From positions 1 to 64,000 of the forward strand of contig NZ_FPAT01000007.1 in assembly GCF_900116555.1 (NCBI RefSeq): a DNA stretch of 64,000 nt. Reading direction: 5' to 3'. This DNA is from Actinopolyspora lacussalsi subsp. righensis (GTDB lineage Bacteria; Actinomycetota; Actinomycetes; Mycobacteriales; Pseudonocardiaceae). A model generated the notes under the pieces. It worked only from the letters and a program-made list of their open reading frames with translations. It was not told the DNA's origin and searched no databases. Positions 13,903 to 56,342 of the stretch are shown in pieces. The translations under genes were made by a program, and so were the position numbers. Numbering within the stretch: position 1 is the stretch's first letter; each line of letters begins with the position of its first letter.

Positions 13903-13947
13903 CGCCGCTCACCGATGACACCCCGGTGCCGGTCGCATCCGGGGACG

Positions 13948-15877: not shown

Positions 15878-15905
15878 CTCCGGGAGGCGAGACGGGTCAT
15901 CCCGA

Positions 15906-32625: not shown

Positions 32626-32654
32626 GGCGCGGCGATTTCGCGAGAAATTGACGC
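32626..32654. repeat. 29-nt palindromic intergenic repeat (copy 1)
   Basis: Centred on GATTTCGCGAGAAATT, this 29-nt sequence recurs identically at 54171-54199, and a closely related, perfectly self-complementary version lies at 44389-44414. It forms a 10-bp stem with one G-T and one mismatch around CGCGAG. Here it lies between the convergent dapC and CHAD genes. Confidence 0.8.
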
Positions 32655-41816: not shown

Positions 41817-42265
41817 GCCACATCTCCCTAGTCATCGGCGTGGACGGTGGCCCGTCCCCGGTTCGTTGTGATACTCACCACGGTGGAGTCGTTCGCCTCT
41901 CGCTCCACAGTAGACCTGGTTTCGTTCGGTGAGTAGCCGTGCGTACCCGTCCGCCCCCGTCACCTCGGCAGTGTGCACCGCGGGAACACGGGCGGTGATT
42001 CGTGGTTGTGGTGGGATGTCCGCTGTGGTGCCCACCCGTCGTGGATGTGGCCGACCGGAACGGCGACGCGCCCGAAAGGTCTTCGACTCGCCGATCGGCG
42101 GGACAGGATGATGGAGTTCGCAGCCTGGGCGCATCGTTCGAGCAGCGCAGCACGGACGGAAGTTGATCGGTTCGGTTTCGCGGGTGCGTCCGGATGGGGG
42201 AGAATGTAGGACAAAGGCTGGTCCGGTGACCAGTCGGTGGGATGAGTTCACGGAGGGAGCACGCT
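41817..42265. other. 449-nt gap before the DUF3117 gene
   Basis: No convincing gene is seen. The left side should hold the enoyl-CoA hydratase promoter. Near the right end CTGGTC (42218-42223) and GACCAG (42228-42233) form a 6-bp inverted repeat with loop CGGT, about 32 nt before the DUF3117 start, which may be an operator or leader hairpin. Confidence 0.4.
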
Positions 42266-42433
42266 ATGGCGGCCATGAAGCCCCGGACCGGTGACGGTCC
42301 CCTCGAGGTGACCAAGGAGGGACGCGGAGTCGTGATGCGCATCCCGCTCGAGGGTGGTGGGCGTCTTGTCGTCGAAATGACGATGGAGGAGGCCACGAAT
42401 CTGAGCGAGGCTCTAAACTCGGTCACCGGTTGA
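42266..42433 (+). CDS. DUF3117 family small protein
   Basis: A 55-aa protein (MAAMKPRTGDGPLEVTKEGR at the start, then VVMRIPLEGGGRLVVEM and a short helix). It matches the highly conserved actinobacterial DUF3117 family (Rv1211-like). Function is unknown; the sequence suggests a compact beta-hairpin plus helix. ATG 42266 has GGAGGG 6 nt upstream. As in mycobacteria, it lies downstream of tag. Confidence 0.92.
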   Translation: MAAMKPRTGDGPLEVTKEGRGVVMRIPLEGGGRLVVEMTMEEATNLSEALNSVTG

Positions 42434-42628
42434 GGCCGCCGTGAGGTGACCGGCGAGCGTCCGCTCGCCCCGCCATGCGAGCGATCCCGGCGCCGGTGGG
42501 TGCCGGGGTCACTTTCCGGCGCGCCGGTACGGGCCGGGACGATACCCGGTTATGGTCTCGATCGAGTGATCGTTTTGGTCCCACGACAGCACGAACCAAC
42601 CGAACAACCAGGTCAGGAAGGTGCCGCA

Positions 42629-44203
42629 GTGCCCGGTTCCGCTCCCGCGGCTTCGAACCCGGAAGCCGTTCTTCCCGTGATTCCGACCGCTTTGGTCGAG
42701 GTCGACGTCGTCGAACGATGGGGTGAGGGAATCCCGGCCGCGGTACCGGTGGCCGACATCGACGGCGAACCGGATCTGGAAACCGCCGCCGAGAACCTCG
42801 GTGTCGACACCGCGACCCTGCGAGCACTGGACGTCAGTGGCAAGGCGGGTGAAGTCCGCGCGGTTCCGCTTTCCGAGGGGCGACTCGGCTGGGCTGTGGG
42901 CATCGGTGACGGTGAGCCGTTCCGCTGGCGCACCGCTGGTGGTGAACTGGCCAGGGCGATTCGCGCCCGTATCGGTGACTCCGGTGGTGAGGGAGCCGAT
43001 CCCCGCGATCTGGGTGAGGCGCTGGACGTGGAGTACGTGCAGTTCCGGCTGCCCTCCGGGGTCACCCCGGAGCTCGTCAGCGCCCTCACGCTGGGTGTGG
43101 CACTGGGGGAATACCACTTCAGGGTGAGTGCGCGTCCGACACCGCCCCGCGTGCGCAAGGTTCTGCTGGTGGCTCAGCCGGGTGAGGACGTCACGCGGCT
43201 GCGCGAGACCGCCCGACGCGCCCGGGAATGGGCCTCGGCGACCTCGGTCGCACGCGACCTCGCCAACGCGCCTTCCAACGTCAAGAGCCCGGCATGGCTG
43301 GCCGAGACCGCCGCTGCCATGAGCGGCTCCGTAACCGGGCTCAACGCGACGGTGCGGGACGAGAAATGGCTGGCCGGGCAGGGATTCGGTGGTGTGCTCG
43401 CGGTCGGTGGTGGCTCTTCCAGGCCGCCGCGGCTCCTCGAACTCACCTGGCAGGGTTCCGGTAACGGCGATTCCGGGACCCGCCATGTCGTGCTGGTGGG
43501 CAAAGGGATCACTTTCGACACCGGCGGGATCTCGTTGAAACCCGCCGAGGGCATGGAAATGATGCGCACCGACATGGCGGGTGGCGGTGCCGTGATCGGC
43601 GCCATGCTGGCCATAGCCAGGCTGGAGCTTCCCGTCCGGGTGACCGCGTTGGTCCCGATGGCCGAGAACCACGTCTCCGGGTCCGCCTACCGCCCCGGTG
43701 ACGTGGTGCGTCACTACGACGGGACCACGACCGAGGTAGCCAACACCGACGCCGAGGGGCGCATGGTGATGGCTGACGCGCTCGGCTACGCCGTTCGCAA
43801 CCACGAGCCCGATCTGATCGTGGACGTCGCCACGTTGACCGGTGCGATGAAGGTCGCGCTCGGGCTGCGAACCGGTGGTGTGTTCAGCAGCGACGAGAAA
43901 CTCGGTGAACGGGTGCGTGACGCCGGGCGGCGTGCCGGTGAGAACTGGTGGCCCATGCCGCTGTCCGAGGACCACGCCACCGACGTCCGCGGCACCACGG
44001 CCGACGTCAAGCAGGCAGCACAGGGCCCTGGTGCGCTGATGGCGGCACTGTTCCTCCGCGAGTTCACCGGCGAGTTGCCGTGGGCGCACCTCGACATCGC
44101 CGGTCCCGCGCGCGCCGACAAACCCTACGACGAGGTGGTCGCGGGGGCCACCGGGTTCGCCGCCCGAACCCTCGTCGAATTCGTCGCCGGGCTGCAGGAG
44201 TAG
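42629..44203 (+). CDS. pepA: Leucyl aminopeptidase (M17)
   Basis: A 524-aa cytosolic metallo-aminopeptidase. The C-terminal catalytic domain shows VGKGITFDTGGISLKP (metal Lys/Asp), MRTDMAGGGAV, and NTDAEGRMVMADAL with metal-binding Asp and Glu and the bicarbonate-binding Arg. The N-terminal ~190 residues form the regulatory domain. GTG 42629 is chosen for GGAAGG 7 nt upstream and normal M17 length; GTG 42566 (behind a TATGGT) would add 21 residues. The gene is followed by a copy of the structured repeat. Confidence 0.93.
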   Translation: MPGSAPAASNPEAVLPVIPTALVEVDVVERWGEGIPAAVPVADIDGEPDLETAAENLGVDTATLRALDVSGKAGEVRAVPLSEGRLGWAVGIGDGEPFRWRTAGGELARAIRARIGDSGGEGADPRDLGEALDVEYVQFRLPSGVTPELVSALTLGVALGEYHFRVSARPTPPRVRKVLLVAQPGEDVTRLRETARRAREWASATSVARDLANAPSNVKSPAWLAETAAAMSGSVTGLNATVRDEKWLAGQGFGGVLAVGGGSSRPPRLLELTWQGSGNGDSGTRHVVLVGKGITFDTGGISLKPAEGMEMMRTDMAGGGAVIGAMLAIARLELPVRVTALVPMAENHVSGSAYRPGDVVRHYDGTTTEVANTDAEGRMVMADALGYAVRNHEPDLIVDVATLTGAMKVALGLRTGGVFSSDEKLGERVRDAGRRAGENWWPMPLSEDHATDVRGTTADVKQAAQGPGALMAALFLREFTGELPWAHLDIAGPARADKPYDEVVAGATGFAARTLVEFVAGLQE

Positions 44204-44235
44204 CTCGGGGGATCGGTTTTCGTAGCTGGTCGCTT

Positions 44236-44350
44236 GGCGGAACCTCTGACACGGCTCTCGCTGCGGGGAGGCCCGACATCGGGTAGCGATCTACACAACG
44301 TCGGGCCTTCCTCGCGAGAGCCGCACCGGAGAACCCGCGGCGGTGCCGAT
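44236..44350 (+). repeat. Structured intergenic repeat, copy A
   Basis: A long nested hairpin. The outer stem is CGGCTCTCGC (44252-44261) with GCGAGAGCCG (44314-44323). The middle stem is GGCCCGAC (44270-44277) with GTCGGGCC (44300-44307). The inner stem is GTAG with CTAC around CGAT. It starts at GGCGGAACC and ends at GGTGCCGA. Similarity to copy C extends leftward to about 44214. No reading frame is conserved, so it looks like a non-coding or bidirectional terminator element. Confidence 0.85.
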
Positions 44351-44388
44351 TTCGAGGGTGGTGGGAGTTCGGCCTGCCTCGAAGCCGC

Positions 44389-44414
44389 GCGTCGATTTCG
44401 CGAGAAATCGACGC
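44389..44414. repeat. Perfect palindromic repeat (copy 2)
   Basis: GCGTCGATTT (44389-44398) and AAATCGACGC (44405-44414) pair fully around CGCGAG. It is related to the 29-nt repeats at 32626 and 54171. Confidence 0.8.
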
Positions 44415-44444
44415 CGCGAATCGACGCCGCGAATCGACGCCGCG
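44406..44444. repeat. 13-bp tandem repeat, three units
   Basis: AATCGACGCCGCG is repeated three times without change. The first unit begins inside the palindrome at 44389-44414, suggesting it arose by slippage from it. Confidence 0.85.
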
Positions 44445-44505
44445 CTACGTCCGGTGCTCGCTCGGGGTGGGGCTGTTCCGGCCGTAAGGTGGTGTAGCCG
44501 CTCGG

Positions 44506-44913
44506 TCAGGTGGCGTCGGAGTCGAACGGTGGGCGTTCGCCCGGATCCAGCGGCTTTTCCCGACGGAACGACGGGGGAGCGTCCGATCTCGGTTTGTGCC
44601 CGTTCGTACCCGAACCCCGATCGTTGGTGACCCCGTCCAGCGGGTTCTCGTCGTCGAACAGATGCTTGCTCACCGCCCGCTTGGGGTCGAAATCGCGGAT
44701 GCCGCGCAGATCCTCCAACGGCTTGCGCAGATCGTCGAACTCCGGTCCCAGCTCGGAACGCAGTTGGTCCCGTGCTCCGGTGGCGTACTCGCGGACCTGA
44801 CGAACCGTCTTACCCAGCCAGGCCGCCGCGGAAGGCAGCCGTTCGGGTCCGAGGATGAACAGACCGGCGACGATGAGAACCAGGATCTCACCCCAGCCGA
44901 TGCTATCGAACAC
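44506..44913 (-). CDS. tatB: Sec-independent translocase subunit TatB
   Basis: A 135-aa membrane protein of the twin-arginine export system. [20 protein letters not shown] is the N-terminal span with the TatB-type Gly and Glu residues, LGPERLP is the hinge, and a long amphipathic helix ([20 protein letters not shown]) follows. The C-terminal third is charged and disordered. It lies downstream of htrA on the same strand, the same order as sigE-rseA-htrA-tatB in M. tuberculosis. Confidence 0.93.
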
Positions 44914-45003
44914 CTCGACTCCTTCCGGGGCGTCGCGTCGGTGCCCGCACTGTGGGGTGAGCGGGAACCGCTGTCCGGACTCAGCCTATCCAAACTCGGC
45001 GCG

Positions 45004-46593
45004 CTATTGGAGGGTGACGTCCAGGACGAGTTCGTTGCCATCGCGAACCACGGTCACCGGAACGACCGCACCCACGTCGTGCTCGTCCACCGCGACCTGC
45101 AACTCGTCGGCCCCGGTGATCTCACGGTCGTCCACCTTGGTGATCACGTCGCCCTCGACGACCCCGGCCTTCTCTGCGGCGCTGCCCTGCTTCACGTTCT
45201 GGACCTGGGCGCCGTCGGCGATGCCGTCGGTGACCGACTTGGTGTTCACGCCGAGCTCGGCGTGCTGTACCTCACCGGTGCGGATGAGCTGTTGGGCTAT
45301 CTGGCGAACCTTGTCGATCGGTACCGCGAACCCGAGACCGATCGATCCGCTGCTGCCGCCCGCGCCTAACGTCCTGATGGCCGTGTTGATGCCCACCACG
45401 GCTCCGTTCCCCGACACCAATGCTCCACCCGAGTTGCCCGGGTTCACGGCCGCGTCGGTCTGAATGGCGTCGATCACGGCGTTGGTGTCGGTGCCCTCAC
45501 CGGCGAGTCGCATCGGCCGATCGAGCGAACTGACGATGCCGCTGGTGACGGTGTTGTCCAGCCCCAGCGGGGAACCGATGGCCAGCACCTCGTCCCCGAC
45601 GCGCAGATCCTCCGAGGACCCCAGCCGCGCGACGGTCGGATTGCTGACCTCCACCTTGAGCACCGCGAGGTCGGTTTGCGGATCGCGTCCGACGATTCGA
45701 GCCGATGTCCTGGTGCCGTCCGAGAAAACCGTGAATATCTTCGCGTTCGGTGTATCCGCGGCCATCGAGACCACGTGGTTGTTCGTCACGACGTAGCCGT
45801 TGCCGTCGATCACGACACCCGAACCGGTGCCCCCCTCGGAACCTATCCTCACCTCGACAGAGACCACAGCGGGCACCACGCGAGAGGCGACTCCCGAAAC
45901 AGAACCCGCGGGGCGGTCGTTGCCCGGCTCCACACTGGCCAGCGTCACGTCCGGATTGGTGAGCGGATTGCCCTCCTCGGCGGTGATACGCCCCACGAAT
46001 CCCCCGGCCGCTCCGAGCAGCAACACCACCAGCCCAAGGGTGAGCAGGGAACGGGGACGAACCCTGCGTCCGAACAGCACTTCCCGCGCACTGAGCAGCG
46101 GACCCTCACCGGGGGTCGTCCCCGACTCCGAGCGGTTCTCCTCCAGCGCGGGGCCACCGAGTACCGCTCCGGAGGTGGGATCGCGCCAGGGGTCCCGTTC
46201 GCCCTGCTCGTTCCAGAAGACCGGTTCGTCGGTGCCGTCCTCGCCCGACTGTCGCGCTCCCGTTTCCCACGGTGCGCGTTGTAATGGTTCCGAGGCGCCC
46301 GCCGGACGACCGAACGCGTGCGCCAGTGATTCCGGGGTCGGTGGCGCGTGATTCATCCGGGGAGTGCTGTCGGTATCCCGGTGGTCGAAGCTGCCTCGAA
46401 CTCCCTCGGGCCTGCCGAAGACGACGGCCTCGGGCGGATGCTCTTCCGAGCCGTTCCCGGCCGAGGAGTACCGAGGCGCTGTGTCCCGGTGTGTCGTCGG
46501 CTCATCGTGCTCGACGCTCGCAGCGGGTCCATCCGTGCCCGAATGCTCTCCCGGATCCCCCTGATGCGCGGATGTCCTCGGCTGCTCGCTCAT
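45004..46593 (-). CDS. htrA: HtrA-family membrane serine protease with PDZ domain
   Basis: A 529-aa envelope protease. A long acidic, disordered cytosolic part (about 1-175) precedes one membrane span (SLLTLGLVVLLLGAAGGFVG). The extracytoplasmic S1C domain has the triad His (TNNHVVS), Asp (TDLAVLKV) and Ser (NPGNSGGALV), and a C-terminal PDZ domain runs from about residue 440. The family degrades or refolds damaged exported proteins. It belongs to the sigE-rseA-htrA-tatB set, implying SigE-linked expression; 208 nt separate it from rseA. Confidence 0.93.
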   Translation of the reverse strand: MSEQPRTSAHQGDPGEHSGTDGPAASVEHDEPTTHRDTAPRYSSAGNGSEEHPPEAVVFGRPEGVRGSFDHRDTDSTPRMNHAPPTPESLAHAFGRPAGASEPLQRAPWETGARQSGEDGTDEPVFWNEQGERDPWRDPTSGAVLGGPALEENRSESGTTPGEGPLLSAREVLFGRRVRPRSLLTLGLVVLLLGAAGGFVGRITAEEGNPLTNPDVTLASVEPGNDRPAGSVSGVASRVVPAVVSVEVRIGSEGGTGSGVVIDGNGYVVTNNHVVSMAADTPNAKIFTVFSDGTRTSARIVGRDPQTDLAVLKVEVSNPTVARLGSSEDLRVGDEVLAIGSPLGLDNTVTSGIVSSLDRPMRLAGEGTDTNAVIDAIQTDAAVNPGNSGGALVSGNGAVVGINTAIRTLGAGGSSGSIGLGFAVPIDKVRQIAQQLIRTGEVQHAELGVNTKSVTDGIADGAQVQNVKQGSAAEKAGVVEGDVITKVDDREITGADELQVAVDEHDVGAVVPVTVVRDGNELVLDVTLQ

Positions 46594-46801
46594 CGCTCCC
46601 CGGTTTTACGCACGTGTCGGTTCTCGGCCGGCTGCCCTGAGTGCATCACACGAAGGAGACATCGCGCTCACCGGAGTGGGATAGCCGTTCGGCGAATCCT
46701 CCGGCCGTCTCCCGCGCTCGACACTTCGGTGCACGTGCCATGTTGCCCGAGCGGGAGTGAAGTCCTCGTTGGCTTCGGCGCGTGAACTCGGTGCGTGGCG
46801 G

Positions 46802-47545
46802 TTACGAAGCCGGGTCGGGAGCGGGGACGGAACTCCTGTCCGGCGCGTTCGGCCGCACGGAGACACTGGCGGCCGGGGCTGTCGTCGACTCGGCCGTGGG
46901 AATCGTCGCCGCGGTGCTCGGGGCGTCCTCGCTCGGCGTGGTCGAGCTGCCCGCCTCCTCGACGGCTCCGCCCGGTGACATCGGATCGGGCACCGTGTTC
47001 ACCGGGTTACGTGCTCCGTCCGTCGGGGTGTTCATGAATGCCAGCGCCCCCAGCACGAGGCCGGAGAACACCACGCCCGCACTCTGTTTGGCGCGACGTC
47101 CGCCGAGCCTCGACTGCTGCGTCCCCGTGTCGGTCGGGAGCGAGCCGCCCTCGGAGACGGATCCGACTCGACCGGAACCTTTTCCCAACGGGGTACTCGT
47201 CCCTAATGGCGCGGATTTCGAGCTCCCCGGACGCCGGTTGAGCGTGACGAGCTGTCCGTCCTCGCTCAGCGCCAGGTTGTCCGGCTGCTCGGGTAGCTCG
47301 GCGGTCGCGGGGATCGACTGCAACGACTGCAGTAGTTGTGGGGAGATCGAAGGTGTCGACGCGGTTCGTACGGCCGAACGTGCCTGCCGCTGTGCGTCCG
47401 CCTCCGTGGCACAACTCGGGCAGGTGGCCAGGTGCGCGGCGGCGCGGTCGTGCGCCCCCGGACTGAGCTCGCCGTCCACGAAAGCCACCAGTGCGTCCAG
47501 CGCCAGATGCTGCTCAGGCAGCCCCCACCCTCGAAGACCGGTCAT
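46802..47545 (-). CDS. rseA: Anti-sigma factor of SigE (RseA-like, zinc-binding)
   Basis: A 247-aa single-span protein. The N-terminus holds a zinc-binding anti-sigma domain with H38xxxC42xxC45 (AHLATCPSC), the pattern of ZAS anti-sigma factors that bind ECF sigma factors. A membrane span lies near residue 160-180 ([17 protein letters not shown]), followed by a Ser/Thr/Pro-rich extracytoplasmic tail. The ATG overlaps the sigE stop by 4 nt, tying its synthesis to that of the sigma factor. Confidence 0.88.
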
Positions 47546-48216
47546 GCTGTTTCCTCCCGAGTGAGCTCACGACGAGCCTCCAGGGCCGACTTCAGCAACT
47601 GCCGCCCGCGGTGGATGCGGCTACGTACGGTTCCCAGCTTGATGCCCAGCGTGGCACCGATCTCCTCGTAGGAGAGACCTTCGACGTCGCACAGCACGAT
47701 CGCCGCACGGAACTCCGGAGAGAGCTCCTCCAGGGCAGCCTGCAGGTCCGGATCCAGATGGGTGTCCTGGAAAACCTGCTCCGGGCTCGGGCCCCGTCCC
47801 GGGATGCGATCGGTGTCCTCCGGCAGTCCCTCCATGCGCAGCCTGGAGCGCCTGCGTGCCATGTCCAGGAAGAGGTTGGTCGTGATGCGGTGCAGCCATC
47901 CCTCGAAAGTGCCGGGACGGTACGACGCCAGCGACCGGAACACCCGGATGAAGGTCTCCTGAGTGAGATCCTCCGCGTCGTGCTTGTTGCCGGAGAGCCG
48001 GAATGCCAACCGGTACACGCGGTCAGCGTGTTCCCGGACCACTTCCTCCCACGAGGGGGGCGTCCAGTTGGCGGCGGTCTCCTCGGGGGAAACCACGGGT
48101 TGTTCGCCGTGCTCTTCCGAATCCACCGACCGGGGGGCCGTGGCTCCGCTGTCGGAACGTGCCGTCCCCGCGGTGTTCGGTGGAATCGGGCTCGGTGCTG
48201 CCGTGTGGGTGGCCAT
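47542..48216 (-). CDS. sigE: ECF RNA polymerase sigma factor SigE
   Basis: A 224-aa ECF sigma factor for envelope stress. Region 2 is [20 protein letters not shown] with [19 protein letters not shown]; region 4 is [20 protein letters not shown] with a helix-turn-helix ([20 protein letters not shown]). A ~55-residue Pro/Ser-rich leader precedes region 2. ATG 48216 is preferred over GTG 48231 because the latter overlaps the AGGAGG; the 12-14 nt spacing is long, so the start is not certain. A tandem CTGAGA box lies 172-188 nt upstream. Confidence 0.92.
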
Positions 48217-48682
48217 GTGGCGAGAAGGCACCTCCTGCGGGCGGTTGCGCCCGGTAGAACGATCGCCTCGGCCGGTTTGTTCCCGACACCGCGGCTTCGT
48301 GGGGACGTAGCGGCGATGCGTCGCAAATCCTGCCGACTGTCACCCTTCGAGTGTGCTTCCCGGGGATTAGGTGACCGTGATAAGAGCCTGAGAAGCTCCT
48401 GAGAACTTGTTCTCACCCGTCGGTCCGCCTTCCGGTGAGCACCGGGGTTCCCCGCGAACGGTCCGGCCCGCCGGGGCCGCGGTCGGGTTCCGCGCGTAAC
48501 CGATCCCTTCCGAACTCGTTTCGCTCTGTTGTGGGTGGAATTCGGAAATTCGTGGGTCGGGAGCTGCCGGAGCGGTGCGTACGCGGACTCCCGGAGCGTT
48601 ACCCGGCGGTGGGCAGAGGTTACGCGATCGTTGTACCCCACCTCGCCGAGTAGCCACTCCCACAACGATAACCTGTGCAATT
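48217..48682. other. 466-nt divergent region between sigE and the Rv1220c-like gene
   Basis: No gene is seen here. It holds the tandem CTGAGA box (48388-48404), a 14-bp palindrome GAGAACTTGTTCTC (48401-48414) overlapping it, and a TAACCT -10 (48669-48674) for the rightward gene. The first 180 nt upstream of sigE probably form a long leader. Confidence 0.5.
48388..48404 (-). promoter_or_regulatory. Tandem CTGAGA box upstream of sigE
   Basis: CTGAGA at 48388-48393 and 48399-48404, 11 bp apart, is the same arrangement as at 19073-19089 and followed in both by AA. On the sigE coding strand it reads TTCTCAGGAGCTTCTCAG. In M. tuberculosis sigE is a direct target of the response regulator MprA. Confidence 0.55.
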
Positions 48683-49360
48683 GTGCAACCCGAGATTTCC
48701 TCCTCCGTGCCGATGGGTAGTGGCCCTCCGCCACCCCGCGACCGCGGCGGGGGTATACCCGGCCGCGTCCGGAACTCCGCTCGCGCTCCCGTGGAGCTGG
48801 TCGGGGAGCCGCCGATGACCGACGGGGTCGTGGCGGAACGGTTCGGGTCGCCCGAGGCGATGTTGCGTTTCCTGGCATCGGCGTTGCGCGCCAGGGCGGC
48901 GGTCGAGGTCGCCGGTTCGTCGTCCACGGCGCTCGCCCTGTGCGAGGGAATGATCCCGGAAGGCACCCTGACGTGTATCACACTCGACACCGAGGCGCAG
49001 CGGACGACCCGCGAGGCGGTCGCCGAAGCCGGACTGTCGGGCAACAAGCTCCGGATGATCACCGGTGTGGGGGCCGAGGTGCTGCCCAGGCTGGCCGAGG
49101 ACGCCTACGACCTGGTGCACATCGTGGTCGGGAACTCGCCCCTGGCGGAGCTGTTGGAACTGGCCACGCCGTTGCTGCGCCCCGGTGCGACGTTGCTTCT
49201 CAACGGGGCGTTTCGGTACGCCGCTGGTGACAGGGTGTTCGATCCCGACGGCGGTCCGCAGATGCCCCGCGACATCCTGAACGCGATTCACGCCGATCCC
49301 AGGCTGGTCCCGGTCGCCCTGCCCATCGGCAGTGGGCTGCTGGCCATCGCCCGCACCTGA
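48683..49360 (+). CDS. O-methyltransferase-like protein (Rv1220c-like), SAM motif altered
   Basis: A protein of about 225 aa divergent from sigE, as Rv1220c is in mycobacteria. The overall layout fits class I O-methyltransferases (GTLTCITLDTEAQR; RMITGVGAEVLPRLAEDAYDLV; LLRPGATLLLNGAFR). The expected SAM loop (EVGTGxG) is AVEVAGSSST, and the acidic segment usually reading FIDAD is HIVVGNS, so SAM binding and metal catalysis are doubtful. GTG 48683 is proposed from a TAACCT 8 nt upstream; ATG 48815 is the shortest alternative. Confidence 0.6.
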   Translation: MQPEISSSVPMGSGPPPPRDRGGGIPGRVRNSARAPVELVGEPPMTDGVVAERFGSPEAMLRFLASALRARAAVEVAGSSSTALALCEGMIPEGTLTCITLDTEAQRTTREAVAEAGLSGNKLRMITGVGAEVLPRLAEDAYDLVHIVVGNSPLAELLELATPLLRPGATLLLNGAFRYAAGDRVFDPDGGPQMPRDILNAIHADPRLVPVALPIGSGLLAIART

Positions 49361-49398
49361 GCGTGACCTTGCTCCACCCGGTCCGCACAGCGGTGCGG

Positions 49399-49643
49399 GT
49401 GGCGGAACCTCGCGCACGGCTCTCGCTCCGGCGAGGCCCGACATCGAGTAGCCACCTACGCCACGTCGGGCCTTCCTCGCGAGAACCGCACGCGAGAACC
49501 CGCGGCGGTGCCGACTACGAGGGCGGCGGGAGTTCGGCCTGCGGGAGTGGTGGGAGTTCGGTGCCGCGCCGTCCCACCGCCGGGCCATCGACGCAGGTCG
49601 AACCCCGACCACTTACGTCGGCACCGCCGCGAGGTTCCGCCAC
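49399..49643. repeat. 245-bp element with 16-bp terminal inverted repeats
   Basis: GTGGCGGAACCTCGCG (49399-49414) is the exact reverse complement of CGCGAGGTTCCGCCAC (49628-49643). The structured repeat copy B occupies its left half. No target-site duplication was found, and there is no coding frame. It looks like a small non-autonomous (MITE-like) element or a large cruciform. Confidence 0.65.
49401..49515 (+). repeat. Structured intergenic repeat, copy B
   Basis: The same nested stems as copies A and C: outer CGGCTCTCGC (49417-49426) with GCGAGAACCG (49479-49488, one C-A mismatch); middle GGCCCGAC (49435-49442) with GTCGGGCC (49465-49472); inner GTAG with CTAC around CCAC. Confidence 0.85.
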
Positions 49644-49680
49644 GAAACCAGCCACGCGAACCGGTCGGACTCCCGCTGTC

Positions 49681-50820
49681 TCATGCGGGGGAGACGGAGA
49701 GCAACTGCCCCGCCAGTCCCCGTGCCCTGGTCGACAGCTTCTTGGCGACGTCGGCCAGCACCTGGCTCGCGGGCGAGTCGGGATCCTCCAGCACCAGGGG
49801 GGAGCCGCTGTCCCCGGCCTCGCGAAGGCGGGTGTCCAGCGGTACCTGTCCGAGCAGCGGGACGTCCGAACCGACGGAGCGGGTCAGCGAGTCCGAGACG
49901 ATCTGACCGCCGCCGGTGCCGAAGACCTCCACGCGCTGGCCGTCGGGCAGTTCCATCCACGACATGTTCTCCACGACACCGGCGATGCGCTGTCGGGTCT
50001 GCATCGCGATGGCGCCCGCCCGCTCGGCCACCTCGGCCGCGGCCTGCTGTGGCGTGGTGACCACCAGGATCTCCGCGTTCGGGATCAGCTGGGCGGTGGA
50101 CAGTGCGACGTCGCCCGTACCCGGTGGCAGGTCCAGCAGCAGCACGTCCAGGTCCCCCCAGAAGACGTCCGAGAGGAACTGCTGCAACGCGCGGTGCAGC
50201 ATCGGGCCACGCCAGACCACCGGCGTGTTTCCCGGGGTGAACATGCCGATCGAGATCAGCTTGACCCCGTGCGCCTGCGGCGGCATGATCATGTTCTCGA
50301 CCTGGGTGGGCTTGCTCTCGGTCCCCAGCATTCGTGGCACCGAGTGGCCGTAGATGTCGGCGTCGACGACACCGACGGACAGGCCGCGCTCGGCCATCGA
50401 GGCCGCGAGGTTGACGGTCACGCTGGACTTGCCGACGCCGCCCTTGCCGGAGGCGACGCAGTAAACCCGGGTGAGCGACCCCGGTTCGGCGAAGGGAATG
50501 CGGGGTTCCTCGGAGTCACCGCGCAGCTGCTTGCGCAGCTCGGTGCGCTGCTCATCACTCATCACGTCGAGTTCCACCTCGACTGAGCTGACCCCGGTGA
50601 CCTCGGAAACGGCTGAGTCGACCCGCTGGGTGATGGTCTCCCGCATCGGACAGCCCTGCACCGTCAGGTACACGCCGACCTTGACGTCACCCTCGGAGCC
50701 GATGGTCACGTCCTTGACCATGCCGAGATCGGTGATCGGCTTGTGGATCTCCGGGTCCTCCACCTGGGTGAGGGCCTGCCGCACCGCGTCCTCGGTGGGA
50801 GTGGGCTGCGTAGTGGTCAC
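49681..50820 (-). CDS. mrp: Mrp/NBP35-family P-loop ATPase (Fe-S carrier type)
   Basis: A 379-aa protein. The N-terminal MIP18-like domain has DPEIHKPITDLGMV and Cys57 in VQGCPMR. The ATPase domain has deviant Walker A GKGGVGKS (125-132), DADIYGHSVPRMLG and LLLDLPPGTGDV. Mrp proteins carry or assemble Fe-S clusters. The CxxC found after VENMS in many family members is missing here (VENMSWMELPDGQ), which seems usual in actinobacteria. GTG 50820 gives the family N-terminus. It follows the DUF1003 gene on the same strand. Confidence 0.92.
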   Translation of the reverse strand: MTTTQPTPTEDAVRQALTQVEDPEIHKPITDLGMVKDVTIGSEGDVKVGVYLTVQGCPMRETITQRVDSAVSEVTGVSSVEVELDVMSDEQRTELRKQLRGDSEEPRIPFAEPGSLTRVYCVASGKGGVGKSSVTVNLAASMAERGLSVGVVDADIYGHSVPRMLGTESKPTQVENMIMPPQAHGVKLISIGMFTPGNTPVVWRGPMLHRALQQFLSDVFWGDLDVLLLDLPPGTGDVALSTAQLIPNAEILVVTTPQQAAAEVAERAGAIAMQTRQRIAGVVENMSWMELPDGQRVEVFGTGGGQIVSDSLTRSVGSDVPLLGQVPLDTRLREAGDSGSPLVLEDPDSPASQVLADVAKKLSTRARGLAGQLLSVSPA

Positions 50821-50916
50821 GGTTACGCGACACCGACCTTTCCTGAGCTGGTGTGCCGACACTTATGTTACGGACGAGTACCCGAGGATTCACAGCCCGA
50901 CCGGAAATCGTTCCGT

Positions 50917-51465
50917 TCAACCCTGCTCCACGGCTCCGGAGTTGTCGGGTCCCTCACCCCGTGCGCTGCTTCGTCGTCGCCTGCTTTCCGGGCTTTCCGT
51001 GCCGGGGAGGTCGTCACGCAACCGATCCAGTTCGCCGCGCAGGTAGTCCCGTGTGGCGACCTCGCCGACAGCCAGTCTAAGGGCGGCGAGTTCCCGAGCG
51101 AGGTACTCGGTGTCGGCTTTGGTCCGCTCGGCCCGCGCGCGGTCCTCCTCGAGCGATACCCGGTCCCGGTCGTCCTGTCGGTTCTGCGCCAGCAGGATCA
51201 ACGGTGCCGCGTAGGCGGCCTGCGTGGAGAACGCCAGGTTGAGCAGGATGAACGGGTAGGGGTCCCAGGCCAGCCGTACCGCCACGAGGTTGACCGTGAT
51301 CCAGCTTATGACGAGCACGGTCTGCCAGAACAGGAACTTGCCGGTGCCGAGGAACCTCGCGATCCGTTCGGAGAACTTGCCGAACAGCTCCGGGTCGACC
51401 TCGAAGGCCGGGCGGTGGCGTCTGCGTGGCTGGTCGAGCCGTCTGCGCGGGAAGAGCTCAGGCAT
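50917..51465 (-). CDS. DUF1003 family membrane protein
   Basis: A 182-aa protein with two membrane spans (FLFWQTVLVISWITVNLVAV and FILLNLAFSTQAAYAAPLIL) joined by the DUF1003 signature WDPYPFILLN, and a helical, coiled C-terminal tail (DRVSLEEDRARAERTKADTE). Function is unknown. ATG 51465 overlaps the MgtE-like stop by 8 nt; the longer frame to 51576 is antisense noise. The coupling to an MgtE-like regulator domain protein suggests a role in divalent cation handling (inference). Confidence 0.85.
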   Translation of the reverse strand: MPELFPRRRLDQPRRRHRPAFEVDPELFGKFSERIARFLGTGKFLFWQTVLVISWITVNLVAVRLAWDPYPFILLNLAFSTQAAYAAPLILLAQNRQDDRDRVSLEEDRARAERTKADTEYLARELAALRLAVGEVATRDYLRGELDRLRDDLPGTESPESRRRRSSARGEGPDNSGAVEQG

Positions 51466-52756
51466 GCTCACCGTCCGTCCCCGGCTCGAACTCCGGGGTC
51501 CCGGCGTCGGGAAGACCTCCCTCGCGCCAGTTCTCCGGGAGCAGGTGGTCCAGCACGTCGTCGACGGTGACGGCACCGAGCAGATGTTCCTGGTCGTCCA
51601 GCACCGGTCCGCAGACCAGGTTGTAGGCGGCGAAGTAGCGGGTGATCTCGGCCAGTTTGGCTCCGGTGGTCAGGCTGGCGAGGTCGGTGTCCACCGCCCC
51701 GGCGACGAGGTTGGAGGGGGGTTCGCGCAGCAGCCGCTGGATGTGGACGCATCCGAGATACGGGCCCGTCGGGGTCTCCGAGGGCGGGCGGCAGACGAAG
51801 ACCATGCTCGCCAGCGCGACCGGCAGTTCCGCGTTGCGCACGCGGGCGAGGGCCTCCGCGACGGTGGCGTCCGGTGCCAGCACCACCGGATCGGGGGTCA
51901 TCAGACCGCCCGCGGTGTCGGCCGAGTACGCCAGCAGTCGTTTGACGGGCTCGGACTCCTCGGGGGCCATCAGGTTGAGCAGCCGTTCCTTGTCCGGTTC
52001 GGTCAGCTCGGCCAGCAGGTCGGCGGCGTCGTCCGGGTTCATCGCCTCGAGCAGGTCGGCCACCCGGTCCTCGTCGAGGTGGGCCACCAGGTCCTTCTGG
52101 TCCTCCTCGGGGAGTTCCTCGACGACGTCGGCCAACCGCTCGTCGTCCAACGCCTCCGCGACCTCGTACCGCCGCTTCTCCGGCAGGTCGTGCAGCGCGC
52201 TGGCCACGTCGACCGCGCGCATCTCGTCGAGGACGCCGAGCAGCTCGTTGACCTCCTGCGGTTGCTCCGTCAGCTGTGCCGTGGCCGGTCCGGCGACCTG
52301 GTCCCAGGCCAGCACCTGTATCGGCCCCTTGCGCCCCAGCGGCCCGCTGCGCACGTGCACGGCTACCTTGCCGAGCTGCCACTCCCGGTTGCGCTGCTGT
52401 TCCAGCGCCGCGTCGACGAGCACGGCCGACCTGCCCGAGGGGAGCAGCGTCACCCGCGCGTCCAGCAGTTGGCCGAGCACCAGCACCTCGTTCGGACGCT
52501 GGTGGAACCGACGCATGTTCACGCTGCCGGTGGAAAGCAGCACCGCATTGGACTCGATACCGGTGACCCGCAGCATGGGGACGAAGATGCGGCGGTGGGT
52601 GGCGACCTCGACCACGATCCCCAGCACGCGTGGTGGGTGCCGGTCCTTGCGCAGCCCCGCCACGACGTCGCGCACCTTGCCGATGGACTGCCCGTCGGGT
52701 CCGAAGACGACAAGGCCGGACATGCGCGCCGCGAATACTCTGCTGCTGCCAGCCAC
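51458..52756 (-). CDS. MgtE N-domain/CBS protein without membrane domain
   Basis: A 432-aa soluble protein (Rv1232c-like). Residues about 1-90 look like a PRC-barrel-type start (MSGLVVFGPDGQSIGKVRDV). A helical MgtE_N domain follows (DLPEKRRYEVAEALDDERLA; LEAMNPDDAADLLAELTEPD), and then a CBS pair (MTPDPVVLAPDATVAEALARV; VTVDDVLDHLLPENW). The Mg2+-channel part of MgtE is lacking. In MgtE these domains sense cytosolic Mg2+; here they may act on the overlapping DUF1003 membrane protein. The GTG start is supported by a TAACCT 7 nt upstream. Confidence 0.85.
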   Translation of the reverse strand: MAGSSRVFAARMSGLVVFGPDGQSIGKVRDVVAGLRKDRHPPRVLGIVVEVATHRRIFVPMLRVTGIESNAVLLSTGSVNMRRFHQRPNEVLVLGQLLDARVTLLPSGRSAVLVDAALEQQRNREWQLGKVAVHVRSGPLGRKGPIQVLAWDQVAGPATAQLTEQPQEVNELLGVLDEMRAVDVASALHDLPEKRRYEVAEALDDERLADVVEELPEEDQKDLVAHLDEDRVADLLEAMNPDDAADLLAELTEPDKERLLNLMAPEESEPVKRLLAYSADTAGGLMTPDPVVLAPDATVAEALARVRNAELPVALASMVFVCRPPSETPTGPYLGCVHIQRLLREPPSNLVAGAVDTDLASLTTGAKLAEITRYFAAYNLVCGPVLDDQEHLLGAVTVDDVLDHLLPENWREGGLPDAGTPEFEPGTDGEHA

Positions 52757-52763
52757 GCCGATC

Positions 52764-52769
52764 AGGTTA
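52764..52769 (-). promoter_or_regulatory. Leaderless promoter -10 (TAACCT) of the MgtE-like operon
   Basis: On the minus strand TAACCT is followed by 7 nt and the GTG at 52756. It probably drives MgtE-like, DUF1003 and mrp together. Confidence 0.5.
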
Positions 52770-53003
52770 GTTGTTCCGACCGGGCTGAGCAGCGGCGAAA
52801 CGCGGCGCGGACCGCGTGCCGGTCGCCTCGTGGTAGACAAAACCCGGTTCGCGGCGGTTCGTGGTGACACCTCGCCCGGAATCGCCGACGTGACCACTCG
52901 ATGCCTTCGCCCGTCCGCATGGTGGGACCGGCCCGCTTCCGCCCGGCGACCCCGGCGGGCGGAGGATCGGACAGCAGTGTTCCCGCGCGAAGGAGTGCCC
53001 GAC

Positions 53004-53963
53004 GTGGCCGATCCGCAACGTTCCCGCCGCAGCTGTCTCGCGGTGCCCGGCTCCAGCCCGAAGATGATCGACAAGGCCAGGGGGCTGGGGTCGGACCAGT
53101 TCTTCCTCGATCTGGAGGACGCGGTCGCCCCGTTGGCCAAGGCCCAGGCACGCGAGAACGTCGTCGCCGCGCTGAACGAGGGAGGCTGGGGAGACCGGAT
53201 CCGCACCGTCCGGATCAACGATCCGGAAAGCCAGTGGGCCTATCGTGACGTGGTGGACGTGGTGGAGGGGGCGGGCCGGTCGCTGGACACCGTCATGCTC
53301 CCCAAGGTCACCGGTCCCGAGCAGGTGAGTTGGCTCGACCTCACGATCACCCAGATCGAACGGGCACTGGGACTCGCCGCGGGGTCGATCGGTATCGAGG
53401 CGCAGATCGAGGACGCCAAGGGGCTGACCTCGGTCGACTCGATAGCCGCCGCCTCGGGTCGGTTGCGTGCGCTGGTGTTCGGCCCGGCCGACTTCATGGC
53501 CTCCATCAACATGCCCTCGCTCGTGGTCGGTGAGCAGCCTCCCGGATACGACGTGGGTGACGCCTACCACCACGTGCTGATGCGGTTGCTCACCGCGGCC
53601 CGTGCCAACGGTCTGCAGGCCATCGACGGGCCGTACCTGCAGATCAAGGACATCGAGGGTCTCCGCCGGGTGGCGGGTCGTTCCGCCGCGCTCGGTCTGG
53701 ACGGCAAGTGGGTGCTGCACCCCGACCAGGTCGAACCCGTCAACGAGGTGTTCTCGCCGCGACAGCGGGACTACGAGCGGGCGGAGAACATCCTCGACGC
53801 CTACGCCTGGTACACCTCGGAAGCCGGTGGCAGGCGTGGTGCCGCCATGCTGGGTGACGAGATGATCGACGAGGCCTCCCGCAAGATGGCGCTCGTGGTG
53901 GCCGCCAAGGGGCGTGCCGCCGGGCTCCCCAGACAAGAACCCTGGCAACCTCCTGAGAGCTGA
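53004..53963 (+). CDS. HpcH/HpaI-family CoA ester lyase (CitE/malyl-CoA lyase-like)
   Basis: A 319-aa TIM-barrel lyase. RRSCLAVPGSSPKMIDKARG is the typical start, DQFFLDLEDAVAP carries the metal-binding acidic residues, and IGIEAQIEDAKGL and VFGPADFMASINM are conserved barrel segments. The size (about 320 aa) and the C-terminal HPDQVEPVNEVFSP fit the malyl-CoA/methylmalyl-CoA lyase group better than CitE of citrate lyase; no other citrate lyase subunits are present. GTG 53004 has AGGAG 8 nt upstream. Confidence 0.85.
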   Translation: MADPQRSRRSCLAVPGSSPKMIDKARGLGSDQFFLDLEDAVAPLAKAQARENVVAALNEGGWGDRIRTVRINDPESQWAYRDVVDVVEGAGRSLDTVMLPKVTGPEQVSWLDLTITQIERALGLAAGSIGIEAQIEDAKGLTSVDSIAAASGRLRALVFGPADFMASINMPSLVVGEQPPGYDVGDAYHHVLMRLLTAARANGLQAIDGPYLQIKDIEGLRRVAGRSAALGLDGKWVLHPDQVEPVNEVFSPRQRDYERAENILDAYAWYTSEAGGRRGAAMLGDEMIDEASRKMALVVAAKGRAAGLPRQEPWQPPES

Positions 53964-53997
53964 GTTCATCCGGCTCGGTTGTCGTAGGTGATCGCGT

Positions 53998-54110
53998 GGC
54001 GGAACCTCTGGCACGGCTCTCGCTCCGGGAGGCCCGACATCGGGTAGTTACTACACAACGTCGGGCCTTCCTCGCGAGAGCCGCACCGGAGAACCCGCAG
54101 CGGTGCCGAC
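53998..54110 (+). repeat. Structured intergenic repeat, copy C
   Basis: Outer stem CGGCTCTCGC (54014-54023) with GCGAGAGCCG (54074-54083), middle stem GGCCCGAC (54031-54038) with GTCGGGCC (54060-54067), inner GTAG with CTAC around TTA. Stems are kept while the loop changes in length compared with copies A and B. Similarity to copy A extends left to about 53976. Confidence 0.85.
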
Positions 54111-54170
54111 TGCGGGCGTGGTCGGGGCTCGGTCTGTGAGGGTGGTCGGGGCTCGGCACTGCGTCGTACC

Positions 54171-54199
54171 GGCGCGGCGATTTCGCGAGAAATTGACGC
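54171..54199. repeat. 29-nt palindromic intergenic repeat (copy 3)
   Basis: Identical over 29 nt to the sequence at 32626-32654, more than 21 kb away and also in a gene-free gap. Confidence 0.8.
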
Positions 54200-54307
54200 C
54201 CGCCCGGTCCGGGGTCGCACCGCGTCCGCCGTTCCAGGGTGTGTAATCGAGTGTTGGGGATTCGTTAATCCGGTGTGGGTGGCTCTCCTTCCCGCCGGTG
54301 AAGCAGG

Positions 54308-54826
54308 GTGTGCGCATCTGCTCATCGGGACCGGGAGCCCTTTGCCGTGTACGACGATCCGAATCGTGCCGTGGTGCTGGGTTGGAGCGGCACCCTCGTC
54401 CAGTACCACTGTGGCCGCGCCCGGCTGGTTCCCGGCGCCGATACCGCGCTGTTGGGGGCGCGCCTCGCCTCGATCCCGGTGATCGTGCTCACCGAACAGC
54501 CGTTGCGAGAAGTCGCGTCCCAGGCACGCGGACTACGCGTCGCCGACCGGTTGTCCATTGTGATCCCGGGTAGTCGCGACAGGGTGACCGAACTGGCGAA
54601 GCTGCGCGTGGAGTACCCTCGGCTGGCTTTCGTGGGAAGCACCGAGGAGGAGATCGTCGCTGCCCGCAGTGCGGGCGTGCTCGCGTTCGGGTTCTCCGGC
54701 GGGGGTCGCGCGGGCAGACTGCTGCGCGCGGCAGGCGCGGAAGCGGTTTTGTCCAAAATGGACCGCTCGTTGGCGCTGCGGGTCACCGAGCAGCGCTTGT
54801 TCACCGCTTCGGGAGATGCCGGGTAA
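54308..54826 (+). CDS. HAD-like protein lacking the catalytic aspartates (putative pseudo-enzyme)
   Basis: A 172-aa protein (159 aa if it starts at GTG 54347). The order of motifs resembles a HAD hydrolase: VVLGWSGTLV in place of DxDGTL, IVLTEQP with the motif II Thr, a Lys in TELAKLRVEYP, and FVGSTEEEIVAARSAGV in place of the VGDxxxD motif IV. The nucleophile and general-acid Asp and the metal-binding Asp are all missing, so phosphatase activity is unlikely. It lies between repeat copy C and the pst operon. The assignment is by pattern only. Confidence 0.5.
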   Translation: MCASAHRDREPFAVYDDPNRAVVLGWSGTLVQYHCGRARLVPGADTALLGARLASIPVIVLTEQPLREVASQARGLRVADRLSIVIPGSRDRVTELAKLRVEYPRLAFVGSTEEEIVAARSAGVLAFGFSGGGRAGRLLRAAGAEAVLSKMDRSLALRVTEQRLFTASGDAG

Positions 54827-55138
54827 CCGTCGCCGCGCCCGAGGCGAAGTCCGCGGCACGAACCGTCGCACGGGTGCCGTTCCCCTGACGAGCCGGTGTG
54901 TCGGTTCTCGTCCCCCCGGGGCGCGAGTTTTTCGGCTCTCCCGGGGGTGCGTGTTTCCCGGTTTTCGGTTACGCTTTGTGTCGCGTTGAAAACAGGGTGT
55001 CCCGAAAAGGGATCATCGTGCTGTCCGGATCGGGGTCGCGGAAAACCACTGGGTGCGGTGTTACCGCGGTTTTCGCTTCGTGGTTGTTTCGTGATTCATC
55101 CGTGATGAGTGATTTCTGTGGTTCGCTATTCCCCTGCT

Positions 55139-55167
55139 GTTCATCTGAGTTGATTCGGCACGTCACC
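55139..55167 (+). promoter_or_regulatory. Putative PHO-box-like repeats
   Basis: GTTCATC (55139-55145), GTTGATT (55149-55155) and CGTCACC (55161-55167) are spaced 10-12 nt apart and resemble degenerate PhoP repeats (GTTCACC-type). They end about 10 nt before the -10, a position suited to activation. Confidence 0.35.
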
Positions 55168-55176
55168 TTTTCGCTC

Positions 55177-55182
55177 TAGTGT
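55177..55182 (+). promoter_or_regulatory. Putative -10 (TAGTGT) of the pst operon
   Basis: TAGTGT lies about 65 nt upstream of the pstS start and just after the PHO-box-like repeats. Confidence 0.4.
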
Positions 55183-55247
55183 CATTCCCGCCAGTGCAGA
55201 AGACGGCCGGTGCCCATCGGCCGCAGCAGCGTGAAAAGGGGCTACCT

Positions 55248-56342
55248 GTGCAGCGCAGTATTGTCAGACGTACTGCCGCCGGTGCGGCGGCAGCAGCGCT
55301 GACCGTGGTTCTCGGAGCGTGCGGCGCCGCCAACGAGTCCTCGGGCAACTCGGACCAGGGGTCGGGACTCTCCGGAACGCTCGACGGGGCGGGAGCCAGC
55401 TCCCAGGAGGCCGCACAGCAAGCCTGGCGCGCGGCCTTTTCCGAGCAGAATCCCGATTTGACGATCAACTACTCGCCGATCGGTTCCGGCGGTGGCCGGG
55501 AGCGTTTCGTCAACGGGGCGAGCGATTTCGGTGGCACCGACGCCGCGCTGGAGGGTGAGGAACTCGAGGGCGCCAAGCAGCGTTGCGGCACCCTCGTCGA
55601 GGTGCCCGCCTACGTTTCGCCGGTCGCCGTGTCGTTCAATCTCGACGGCATCGACGAACTGAAACTGACTCCGCAGACGATCGCCAAAATCTTCAACCAG
55701 AAGATCACCAAGTGGAACGCCGAGGAGATCAGGAAAACCAACCCGAACGCCGATCTTCCCGATCTGCCCATCACGCCGGTGAACCGTTCCGACGAGTCGG
55801 GCACGACAGAGAACTTCGTGGACTACCTGTCCACCGCCGCCCCGAACGCCTGGCCGCACGAGGTCAGCGGTAACTGGCCGGTTTCCGGCGGTGAGGCCGC
55901 CAAGGGAACCTCCGGTGTGAAGAGCGCCATCGAAGCCGGGCAGGGAACCATCGGTTACCTCGACGCCAGCCAGGCCGGTGACCTCGGCAAGGTCGCGGTC
56001 GGTGTCGGTGAGGAGTTCGTCTCCTACTCGCCCGAGGCCGCTGCCAAGGTGCTGGAGGTCTCGGAGCGCAAGACCGGCCAGGGCGAGCACGTCTACGCCT
56101 ACGACCTGGCGCGGGACACCACCGAATCCGGTACTTACCCGATCGTGCTGGTTTCCTACGCCATGGCCTGCGGCAGCTACGACGACGCGAACACCGGTGA
56201 GCTCGTCCGCAACTACTTCCAGTACGTCATCAGCGAGGAAGGGCAGCAGGCCGCCGCCGACGCTGCCGGCTCGGCCCCGATCTCGGCCGGACTGCGCGAG
56301 AAGCTGCAGCCCGCGATCGAGGCGATCGGCGCGAACAGCTGA
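55248..56342 (+). CDS. pstS: Phosphate ABC transporter substrate-binding lipoprotein PstS
   Basis: A 364-aa lipoprotein that captures phosphate outside the membrane. The lipobox is VLGAC (Cys25). Phosphate-binding loops typical of PstS are visible: GAGASSQEAAQQAW, GSGGGRERFVNGASDFGGTD and VNRSDESGTTENFVDYL. GTG 55248 has AAAGGGG about 6 nt upstream and gives a normal signal peptide. It is the first gene of pstSCAB. Confidence 0.95.
   Translation: MQRSIVRRTAAGAAAAALTVVLGACGAANESSGNSDQGSGLSGTLDGAGASSQEAAQQAWRAAFSEQNPDLTINYSPIGSGGGRERFVNGASDFGGTDAALEGEELEGAKQRCGTLVEVPAYVSPVAVSFNLDGIDELKLTPQTIAKIFNQKITKWNAEEIRKTNPNADLPDLPITPVNRSDESGTTENFVDYLSTAAPNAWPHEVSGNWPVSGGEAAKGTSGVKSAIEAGQGTIGYLDASQAGDLGKVAVGVGEEFVSYSPEAAAKVLEVSERKTGQGEHVYAYDLARDTTESGTYPIVLVSYAMACGSYDDANTGELVRNYFQYVISEEGQQAAADAAGSAPISAGLREKLQPAIEAIGANS

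Follow-up and report, generated by a model that had tools for sequence, protein, structure and literature searches.

A dispersed hairpin repeat behind the genes of Actinopolyspora and other Pseudonocardiaceae, with a possible REP-like origin

Why does one and the same folded, non-coding sequence recur at the 3′ ends of different genes, and is it kept there as a selfish repeat, as a functional part of the host, or as both? The question is raised by a 64,000-nucleotide (nt) stretch of Actinopolyspora lacussalsi subsp. righensis (RefSeq assembly GCF_900116555.1, contig NZ_FPAT01000007.1, positions 1 to 64,000, forward strand), hereafter the window, in which an initial annotation had described a repeat of about 115 nt in three copies and offered three options for it: a bidirectional terminator, an element like the repetitive extragenic palindromic (REP) sequences, or a structured RNA. 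The organism belongs to the Pseudonocardiaceae, a bacterial family known for antibiotics. A large repeat family is found here to occupy the place where transcripts end, and its paired stem changes with fixed loops, tight spacing from stop codons and, in some genomes, direction relative to the replication fork make the question of a selfish role, a functional role or both for a REP-like element directly testable in culturable strains. We put at roughly one half the probability that this is a REP-like non-coding hairpin family of the Pseudonocardiaceae, which is propagated or re-copied as DNA and forms a two-sided structure at gene 3′ ends.

Structure, covariation and abundance of the repeat

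The three annotated copies, at 44236-44350, 49401-49515 and 53998-54110, agree with their description: each holds the nested stems CGGCTCTCGC/GCGAGA(G/A)CCG, GGCCCGAC/GTCGGGCC and GTAG/CTAC, and the terminal loop varies (CGAT, CCAC and TTA). The copies are real, but their limits had been drawn slightly too tight, as conservation begins about 20 nt further upstream. Two covariance models were used, R1 (built from 56 sequences) and the broader R2 (78 sequences), and their full matches in the window all lie on the + strand: copy 1, head and hairpin, at 44215-44350 (151.9 bits with R1, 132 bits with R2), copy 2 at 49380-49515 (133.7 and 120.2 bits) and copy 3 at 53977-54110 (155.9 and 134.6 bits). 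The hairpins occupy 44236-44338, 49401-49503 and 53998-54098, with the apices GTAGCGATCTAC at 44283-44294, GTAGCCACCTAC at 49448-49459 and GTAGTTACTAC at 54044-54054. On both strands, each copy folds better than 200 of 200 dinucleotide shuffles (z from -3.6 to -7.4 on the + strand, from -6.1 to -9.1 on the - strand).

The core of the element is about 135 nt long, and consists of a head of about 20 nt followed by a single long imperfect hairpin (about 103 nt) with three fixed internal loops, namely AAC/AAC, the CGCTsCGGGA side opposite TCCTCGCG, and a loop beneath the GTAG apex. In gene-sense order, the 5′ half runs from a GGTTTGCGTAGCGGTGCGGGTG-like head through GCGG, the AAC loop and a long stem starting with CTC (P1) to the loop near CGCTsC opposite C; the apical half comprises GGGA/TCCT, a bulge, a second stem (P2) and the loop below GTAG/CTAC, and the return arm ends in GAGAACCCGCGGCGGTGCCG. 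The sequences of P1 and P2 can differ entirely between genera, with the loops near-constant. In alignment A5, which was fitted to the structure, 27 of 38 pairs carry paired changes, the covariation score is 0.406 against 0.109 after shuffling, and 93.3% of 2794 cells are paired, compared with 74.8% after shuffling and 38-50% in slid controls. In A2, a MAFFT alignment made independently of the structure, 18 pairs are altered on both sides (4.8 when shuffled) and 91.8% of cells are paired (36-48% in slid controls). Base-pair covariation beyond the controls, as expected of a structured element, is therefore present. Three opposite-strand matches, which are included in a further alignment (A4), were omitted from the pair counts and strand folding given below; none of them is present in A5 or R2, which were built with a stricter E-value.

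Copies are numerous. A BLAST search of the organism's own genome gives at least 42 matches among those listed, two of which are the opposite strand of listed copies (40 candidates scored), and R2 gives 138 (150 candidates scored), many of them at gene ends and with compensatory changes; copy counts and covariation together exclude what would have spoken against the initial annotation, namely that only three copies exist and that their pairs do not covary. In 0.864 Mb of this genome, to which the counts below refer where so stated, R1 yields 32 matches above 60 bits, opposite-strand readings of the same copies reaching 59.5 bits. R2 is positive in 41 of 150 Pseudonocardiaceae genomes, from 13 of 46 genera, and in none of 196 further genomes of the class, of which the 20 listed all belong to other families. 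Where genomes must be told apart they are given handles, the genome of the window being G000. Copy numbers from the covariance model swing widely, from at least 150 in both G149 and G165, through 132 in G021 (a few perhaps opposite-strand readings) and 46 in G020, to two or three matches in the nearly empty congener G006. The core pattern also occurs in assemblies of A. mzabensis, A. xinjiangensis and A. alba, subfamilies vary by species, and truncated as well as hairpin-less copies exist, one of them inside the window. Spread on plasmids or phages was considered and rejected: the BLAST query found no match in either the phage or the plasmid collection, and a lone IMG/VR contig with an 18-nt exact match reaches just 15.5 bits.

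Placement behind stop codons and direction of replication

As annotated, the three copies lie in gaps at the 3′ ends of genes, two gaps being convergent and one codirectional; the model matches start 12, 20 and 14 nt past the stop codons at 44201-44203, 49358-49360 and 53961-53963. In the 0.864 Mb, a same-strand gene precedes 26 of 33 matches above 50 bits, and in 23 of these 26 the model starts 6-26 nt past the stop codon (the spacing count used 56 of 99 R1 matches, with opposite-strand readings and the weakest matches omitted). GCGGAACC occurs 38 times at the 433 gene ends that have free space, in 26 cases 35-49 nt downstream of the first stop-codon base, and in the three genera measured the foot of the hairpin mostly stands 36-46 nt after that base. 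The 32 matches above 60 bits comprise 13 in convergent and 13 in codirectional gaps, two in divergent gaps and four overlapping called genes, so that 26 of the 28 intergenic ones lie in convergent or codirectional gaps. Genes were called with a home-made codon-model script, which misplaced at least one window gene, the + strand gene ending at 53963; the divergent class given to copy 3, and hence at least one of the divergent cases, is an error of this script. Pfam finds HpcH/HpaI in the + frame upstream of copy 3 and MgtE_N in the overlapping - frame. The gap of copy 1 separates convergent M17 peptidase and TatA-like genes, that of copy 2 convergent O-methyltransferase-like and Mrp-type ATPase genes.

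The same siting is seen in other genera. In G020 and G021, a same-strand gene lies ahead of 55 of 60 copies, within 38 nt in 43 of the 55, and in further genera stop codons stand at a similar distance in a reading by eye. Within the subfamilies of G020 and G021, copies share part of the sequence that separates them from the stop codon, and stop triplets are most frequent 40-44 nt ahead of the hairpin base, so that the unit may already start with the stop codon.

With coordinate 0 taken as the origin, copies are co-oriented with the replication fork in 71 of 89 cases in G021, 27 of 28 in G020, 24 of 29 in G003, 6 of 7 in G022, 27 of 31 in G165 and 19 of 22 in G084, and in 234 of 303 when nine genomes are pooled. 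The copies entered were 89 of 91 listed places in G021 (132 matches in total), 28 of 46 in G020, all 7 in G022, 29 listed places in G003 and, for the five further genomes, 150 listed places that form only part of their matches. The assumed origin was checked by GC skew in G021, where, of ten stretches per half, nine in the first half have positive skew and eight in the second have negative skew, which supports coordinate 0; just 58% of the genes in this genome (186 of 319) are co-oriented with the fork. The fork bias is strong in some genomes, and weak or unproven in others.

Convergent gaps offer a closer comparison, as each contains one leading-strand and one lagging-strand gene end. In G021 and G020, chosen because both looked biased, the copy follows the leading-strand gene in 27 cases and the lagging-strand gene in 3 (two-sided binomial test, 8e-6), or in 21 and 3 when the gene must lie within 60 nt (3e-4). 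The sites came from 40 of the 45 best-scoring places of G021 and the 20 best-scoring places of G020; adding one passed-over place of G021 (875804, on the opposite strand 0.2 kb from 875585) changes the count to 27 versus 4 (3e-5). The sense strand of a leading-strand gene is the lagging-strand template.

Turnover at orthologous sites and rival explanations

The syntenic region was compared in nine relatives, in two 20-kb stretches each, one of them shorter in G008. The site of copy 1 is occupied in G061, G007, G004, G003 and G008, and those of copies 2 and 3 in fewer relatives, partly with another repeat family in their place; G001, G002, G005 and G006 have no copy at any of the three. At one orthologous gap, the copy in G003 and G008 has stems unlike those of the G000 copy. 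In the copy-poor G006, some of these gene pairs also stand much closer together; one convergent pair has its stops 4 bp apart, versus 320 in G000. G000 and G061, which belong to the same species, align over long stretches of 16 to 147 kb at 97-99% identity, with gaps equal in length (within 8 nt) in 66 of 80 cases, and several of the element sites that they share are far more divergent than the adjoining genes. Gene conversion or the replacement of alleles accounts for this pattern better than frequent jumping would. Strong divergence between the two genomes is found right behind some stop codons (44203-44506 and 49360-49681 in the window; 93011 and 118121 on contig 3 of G000), and gene ends behave as if they were recombination hot spots.

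Of the three options offered at the outset, REP-like spread combined with a two-sided structure fits these data best, even though the size of a REP, a GTAG foot, a gene for a REP-associated tyrosine transposase (RAYT) and a terminator T-tract are missing. Such a REP-like family accounts for the patchy presence, the swings in copy number, the species subfamilies, the decayed copies and the fork orientation. Spread, or re-copying by gene conversion, would involve the DNA itself, folded as a single strand or a cruciform at the replication fork; copies would be retained in gene orientation shortly behind stop codons; and in situ the hairpin, about equally strong on both strands, would mark the transcript 3′ end, by two-sided termination or as a block to decay. 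Mobility, a moving enzyme and any effect on transcripts are what we infer from the sequences. Several observations weigh against this account. G000 and G061 share the element at six of the seven sites above 60 bits, the seventh holding another repeat family in G061, and no site is exclusive to G061, which indicates that recent jumping is rare. Inspection by eye of the orthologous gaps of the nine relatives, whose flanks are too diverged for the element ends to be called, gave neither a recognisable clean empty site nor the target duplication and terminal inverted repeats of a miniature inverted-repeat transposable element (MITE). A mobilising gene was not found: the Pfam domain Y1_Tnp (PF01797), among the genomes of nine Actinopolyspora species tested, is absent from G002 and G008, both rich in copies, as well as from 15 of the 21 other carriers examined, among them the copy-rich G021 (132 matches), and the presence of the reverse transcriptase domain RVT_1 fails to track the element. 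Under the same assumption about the origin, there is little or no fork bias in G110 (10 of 20), G149 (37 of 59) and G131 (13 of 18), in which replication bias as a universal rule fails. In 24 of 37 copy-free gaps of G021, too, it is the leading gene that is followed by the stronger hairpin, a proportion that differs from 27 to 4 at only P = 0.05 (Fisher's test); part of the leading-gene lean may therefore be general. Lastly, tight distance from the stop codon and fixed orientation are explained more easily by function than by selfish insertion. It is rather doubtful that a bolder form of the same account holds, in which a stop-codon-directed, replication-coupled mobile hairpin, moved by an enzyme other than a Y1/RAYT transposase, would prefer leading-strand gene ends and rewrite more than 100 transcript 3′ ends per genome.

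The main rival to the REP-like family is a cis-acting element of the host's 3′ untranslated regions, a two-sided terminator or protector of mRNA 3′ ends that works without a T-tract and is selected and homogenised by gene conversion rather than selfish. We regard it as possible, if the lesser of the two. It explains the narrow stop-codon distance and same-strand siting in the three genera measured, and it is in keeping with the concentration in convergent and codirectional gaps and with stems that co-vary around constant loops. It would leave unexplained why no match occurs in the genomes sampled from 33 of the 46 genera and nearly none in G006, and a lean towards the leading gene is unexpected for a terminator that both genes of a convergent gap need. 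T-tracts are lacking as well: none of the eight terminator-like sites with a T-run in 42000-56000 falls on a copy. At one copy-free orthologous site, G001, G002, G005 and G006 do carry a strong hairpin of another kind within the first 80 nt (z from -3.0 to -7.3), as replacement of one terminator by another would predict, but at the other two window sites the same genomes have no comparable hairpin (z from -0.6 to 1.3), and terminator equivalence thus held at just one of three sites. It seems unlikely that the repeat is a structured RNA or mRNA element which, released from 3′ untranslated regions, either is bound by a specific protein or acts in trans. Strong covariation and near-invariant internal loops, as in protein-binding RNAs, would suit it, and so would the minus strand folding better in 23 of 33 Actinopolyspora copies (the plus strand in 7); the 36 distinct copies from other genera, however, fold evenly on both strands (16 versus 16 as RNA, 15 versus 14 as DNA). 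A constraint on one RNA strand should also raise G-U over A-C pairs, which is not observed once one fixed pair is set aside: the copies from other genera have 51 G-U cells (33 in that pair, 18 elsewhere) and 30 A-C cells, and the 33 Actinopolyspora copies 58 G-U cells (32 in the fixed pair) and 54 A-C cells (39 in two neighbouring pairs). A constraint on single-stranded RNA is accordingly not supported, and the counts fit better with a hairpin formed by the DNA or with an RNA role on both sides. Nor does Rfam 15 assign any family to the copies in a scan of the window, its sole match there being a thiamine pyrophosphate (TPP) riboswitch elsewhere (RF00059, 1648-1757, 61.6 bits); with six loci searched at E-values up to 5, the best score on a copy is 20.9 bits (mir-5879, cut-off 97). 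REP or REPIN sequences proper, moved by a RAYT (Y1) transposase, are high-copy, extragenic, palindromic with conserved irregularities and sited behind genes, as is this element, which has a GTAG motif at its apex and, in some genomes, the fork-direction bias that single-strand transposition predicts. We nevertheless consider this reading highly improbable, and rejected a RAYT-driven REP because so many carriers lack Y1_Tnp; the apical rather than basal GTAG and a length far beyond 20-40 bp also disfavour it. Movement by reverse transcriptase is likewise not supported, and an origin from group II introns or retrons was dismissed, as RVT_1 is absent in eight of the nine Actinopolyspora species genomes (present only in G002) and in G021, and present in many non-carriers. 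A transposase borne between adjacent copies was also discarded after the open frames at three loci, judged by eye and not by a family search, proved to be none of them transposase-like. Integron attC boxes (RYYYAAC/GTTRRRY) were not noticed by eye in the copies, a dedicated search not having been made.

Neighbouring repeats and comparison with known elements

A further, hairpin-less copy or remnant, overlooked by the initial annotation, lies on the opposite strand at 49617-49662, behind the convergent gene ending at 49681; its 46 nt score 29.0 bits with R1, span the model ends (1-135) and retain inverted arms. Downstream of the full copies, conservation continues into a tail of 24-nt repeats, to which copies 1 and 3 add a short hairpin B with the core TTTCGCGAGAAA. 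The tail of copy 1 (44351-44415, + strand) has one repeat of the 24-nt type and hairpin B (core 44396-44407), that of copy 2 (49516-49561, + strand) has 24-nt repeats, hairpin B not being found there, and that of copy 3 (54110-54200, + strand) has two 24-nt repeats and hairpin B (core 54181-54192). In Actinopolyspora, these repeats stand directly 3′ of the hairpin in varying number (in the window at 44337-44372, 49502-49561 and 54097-54156), and many copies in other genera have a short AAGCGGC/GCCGCTT-like hairpin in their place. Hairpin B also occurs alone, with a solitary core at 32636-32647 close behind the gene ending at 32599, and its core tops the k-mer count, with 59 occurrences in the 0.864 Mb, of which 45 fall between convergent or codirectional genes. 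A second structured gene-end repeat family, GTGAGTCGGC...CTTGAGTAGnnnnCTACGC...CCGACTCACGCAC, also with a GTAG apex, is found in the G061 gap orthologous to 49360-49681 and on contig 3 of G000 near 80128, each of its diagnostic motifs occurring 9-11 times in the 0.864 Mb. Elsewhere in the window, a 275-nt direct repeat (13633-13907 and 15608-15882, 79% identical) probably represents repeated domains of one protein, to judge from its translation, in which a sub-repeat resembles the PKD type by eye (YxWNFGDG).

Actinobacterial terminators that lack a T-tract are strong G+C hairpins behind genes, and BOX repeats have a modular make-up. The present element differs from such terminators in being a far longer sequence family with fixed loops, spread over 13 genera. 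BOX and RUP of pneumococcus are, in the part of the source available, likewise small dispersed chromosomal repeats (PMC3049150); they belong to another phylum, and the likeness is one of description, not of sequence. In the literature, at the level of titles and abstract openings and with subscription papers mostly outside this scope, no such repeat of Actinopolyspora or Pseudonocardiaceae is named, and the accessible portion of PMC3610266 contains no description of it.

The closest resemblance is to REP sequences, REPINs and bacterial interspersed mosaic elements (BIMEs) with their RAYT genes, which, as far as the consulted sections go, share with the present family many extragenic palindromes behind genes, conserved stem mismatches and species-specific subfamilies (PMC3733652, PMC6006769, PMC8266576); REPs, according to the same portion of the first of these, are mostly located behind coding regions. 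As in REP/REPIN systems, the extragenic palindromes here exceed 100 copies in one genome. The differences lie in size (20-40 bp there, a core of about 135 nt here), in the place of the motif (GTAG or GTGG at the 5′ foot there, GTAG in the apical stem here), in the cognate Y1 gene, which many carriers here do not have, and in the narrow spacing and fixed orientation of the present element relative to the stop codon. Some Escherichia coli REPs, as described in the available part of PMC12306157, act near stop codons in translation control; they too are hairpins shortly behind the stop codon, although the relevant class lies within 15 nt, whereas here the hairpin base is reached mostly only after the 36-46 nt given above. 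The nearest known coupling of a folded element to the lagging-strand template is, from the portions of PMC6006769 and PMC8266576 consulted, the single-strand transposition of IS200/IS605 together with the single-stranded DNA substrates of the TnpA-REP enzymes.

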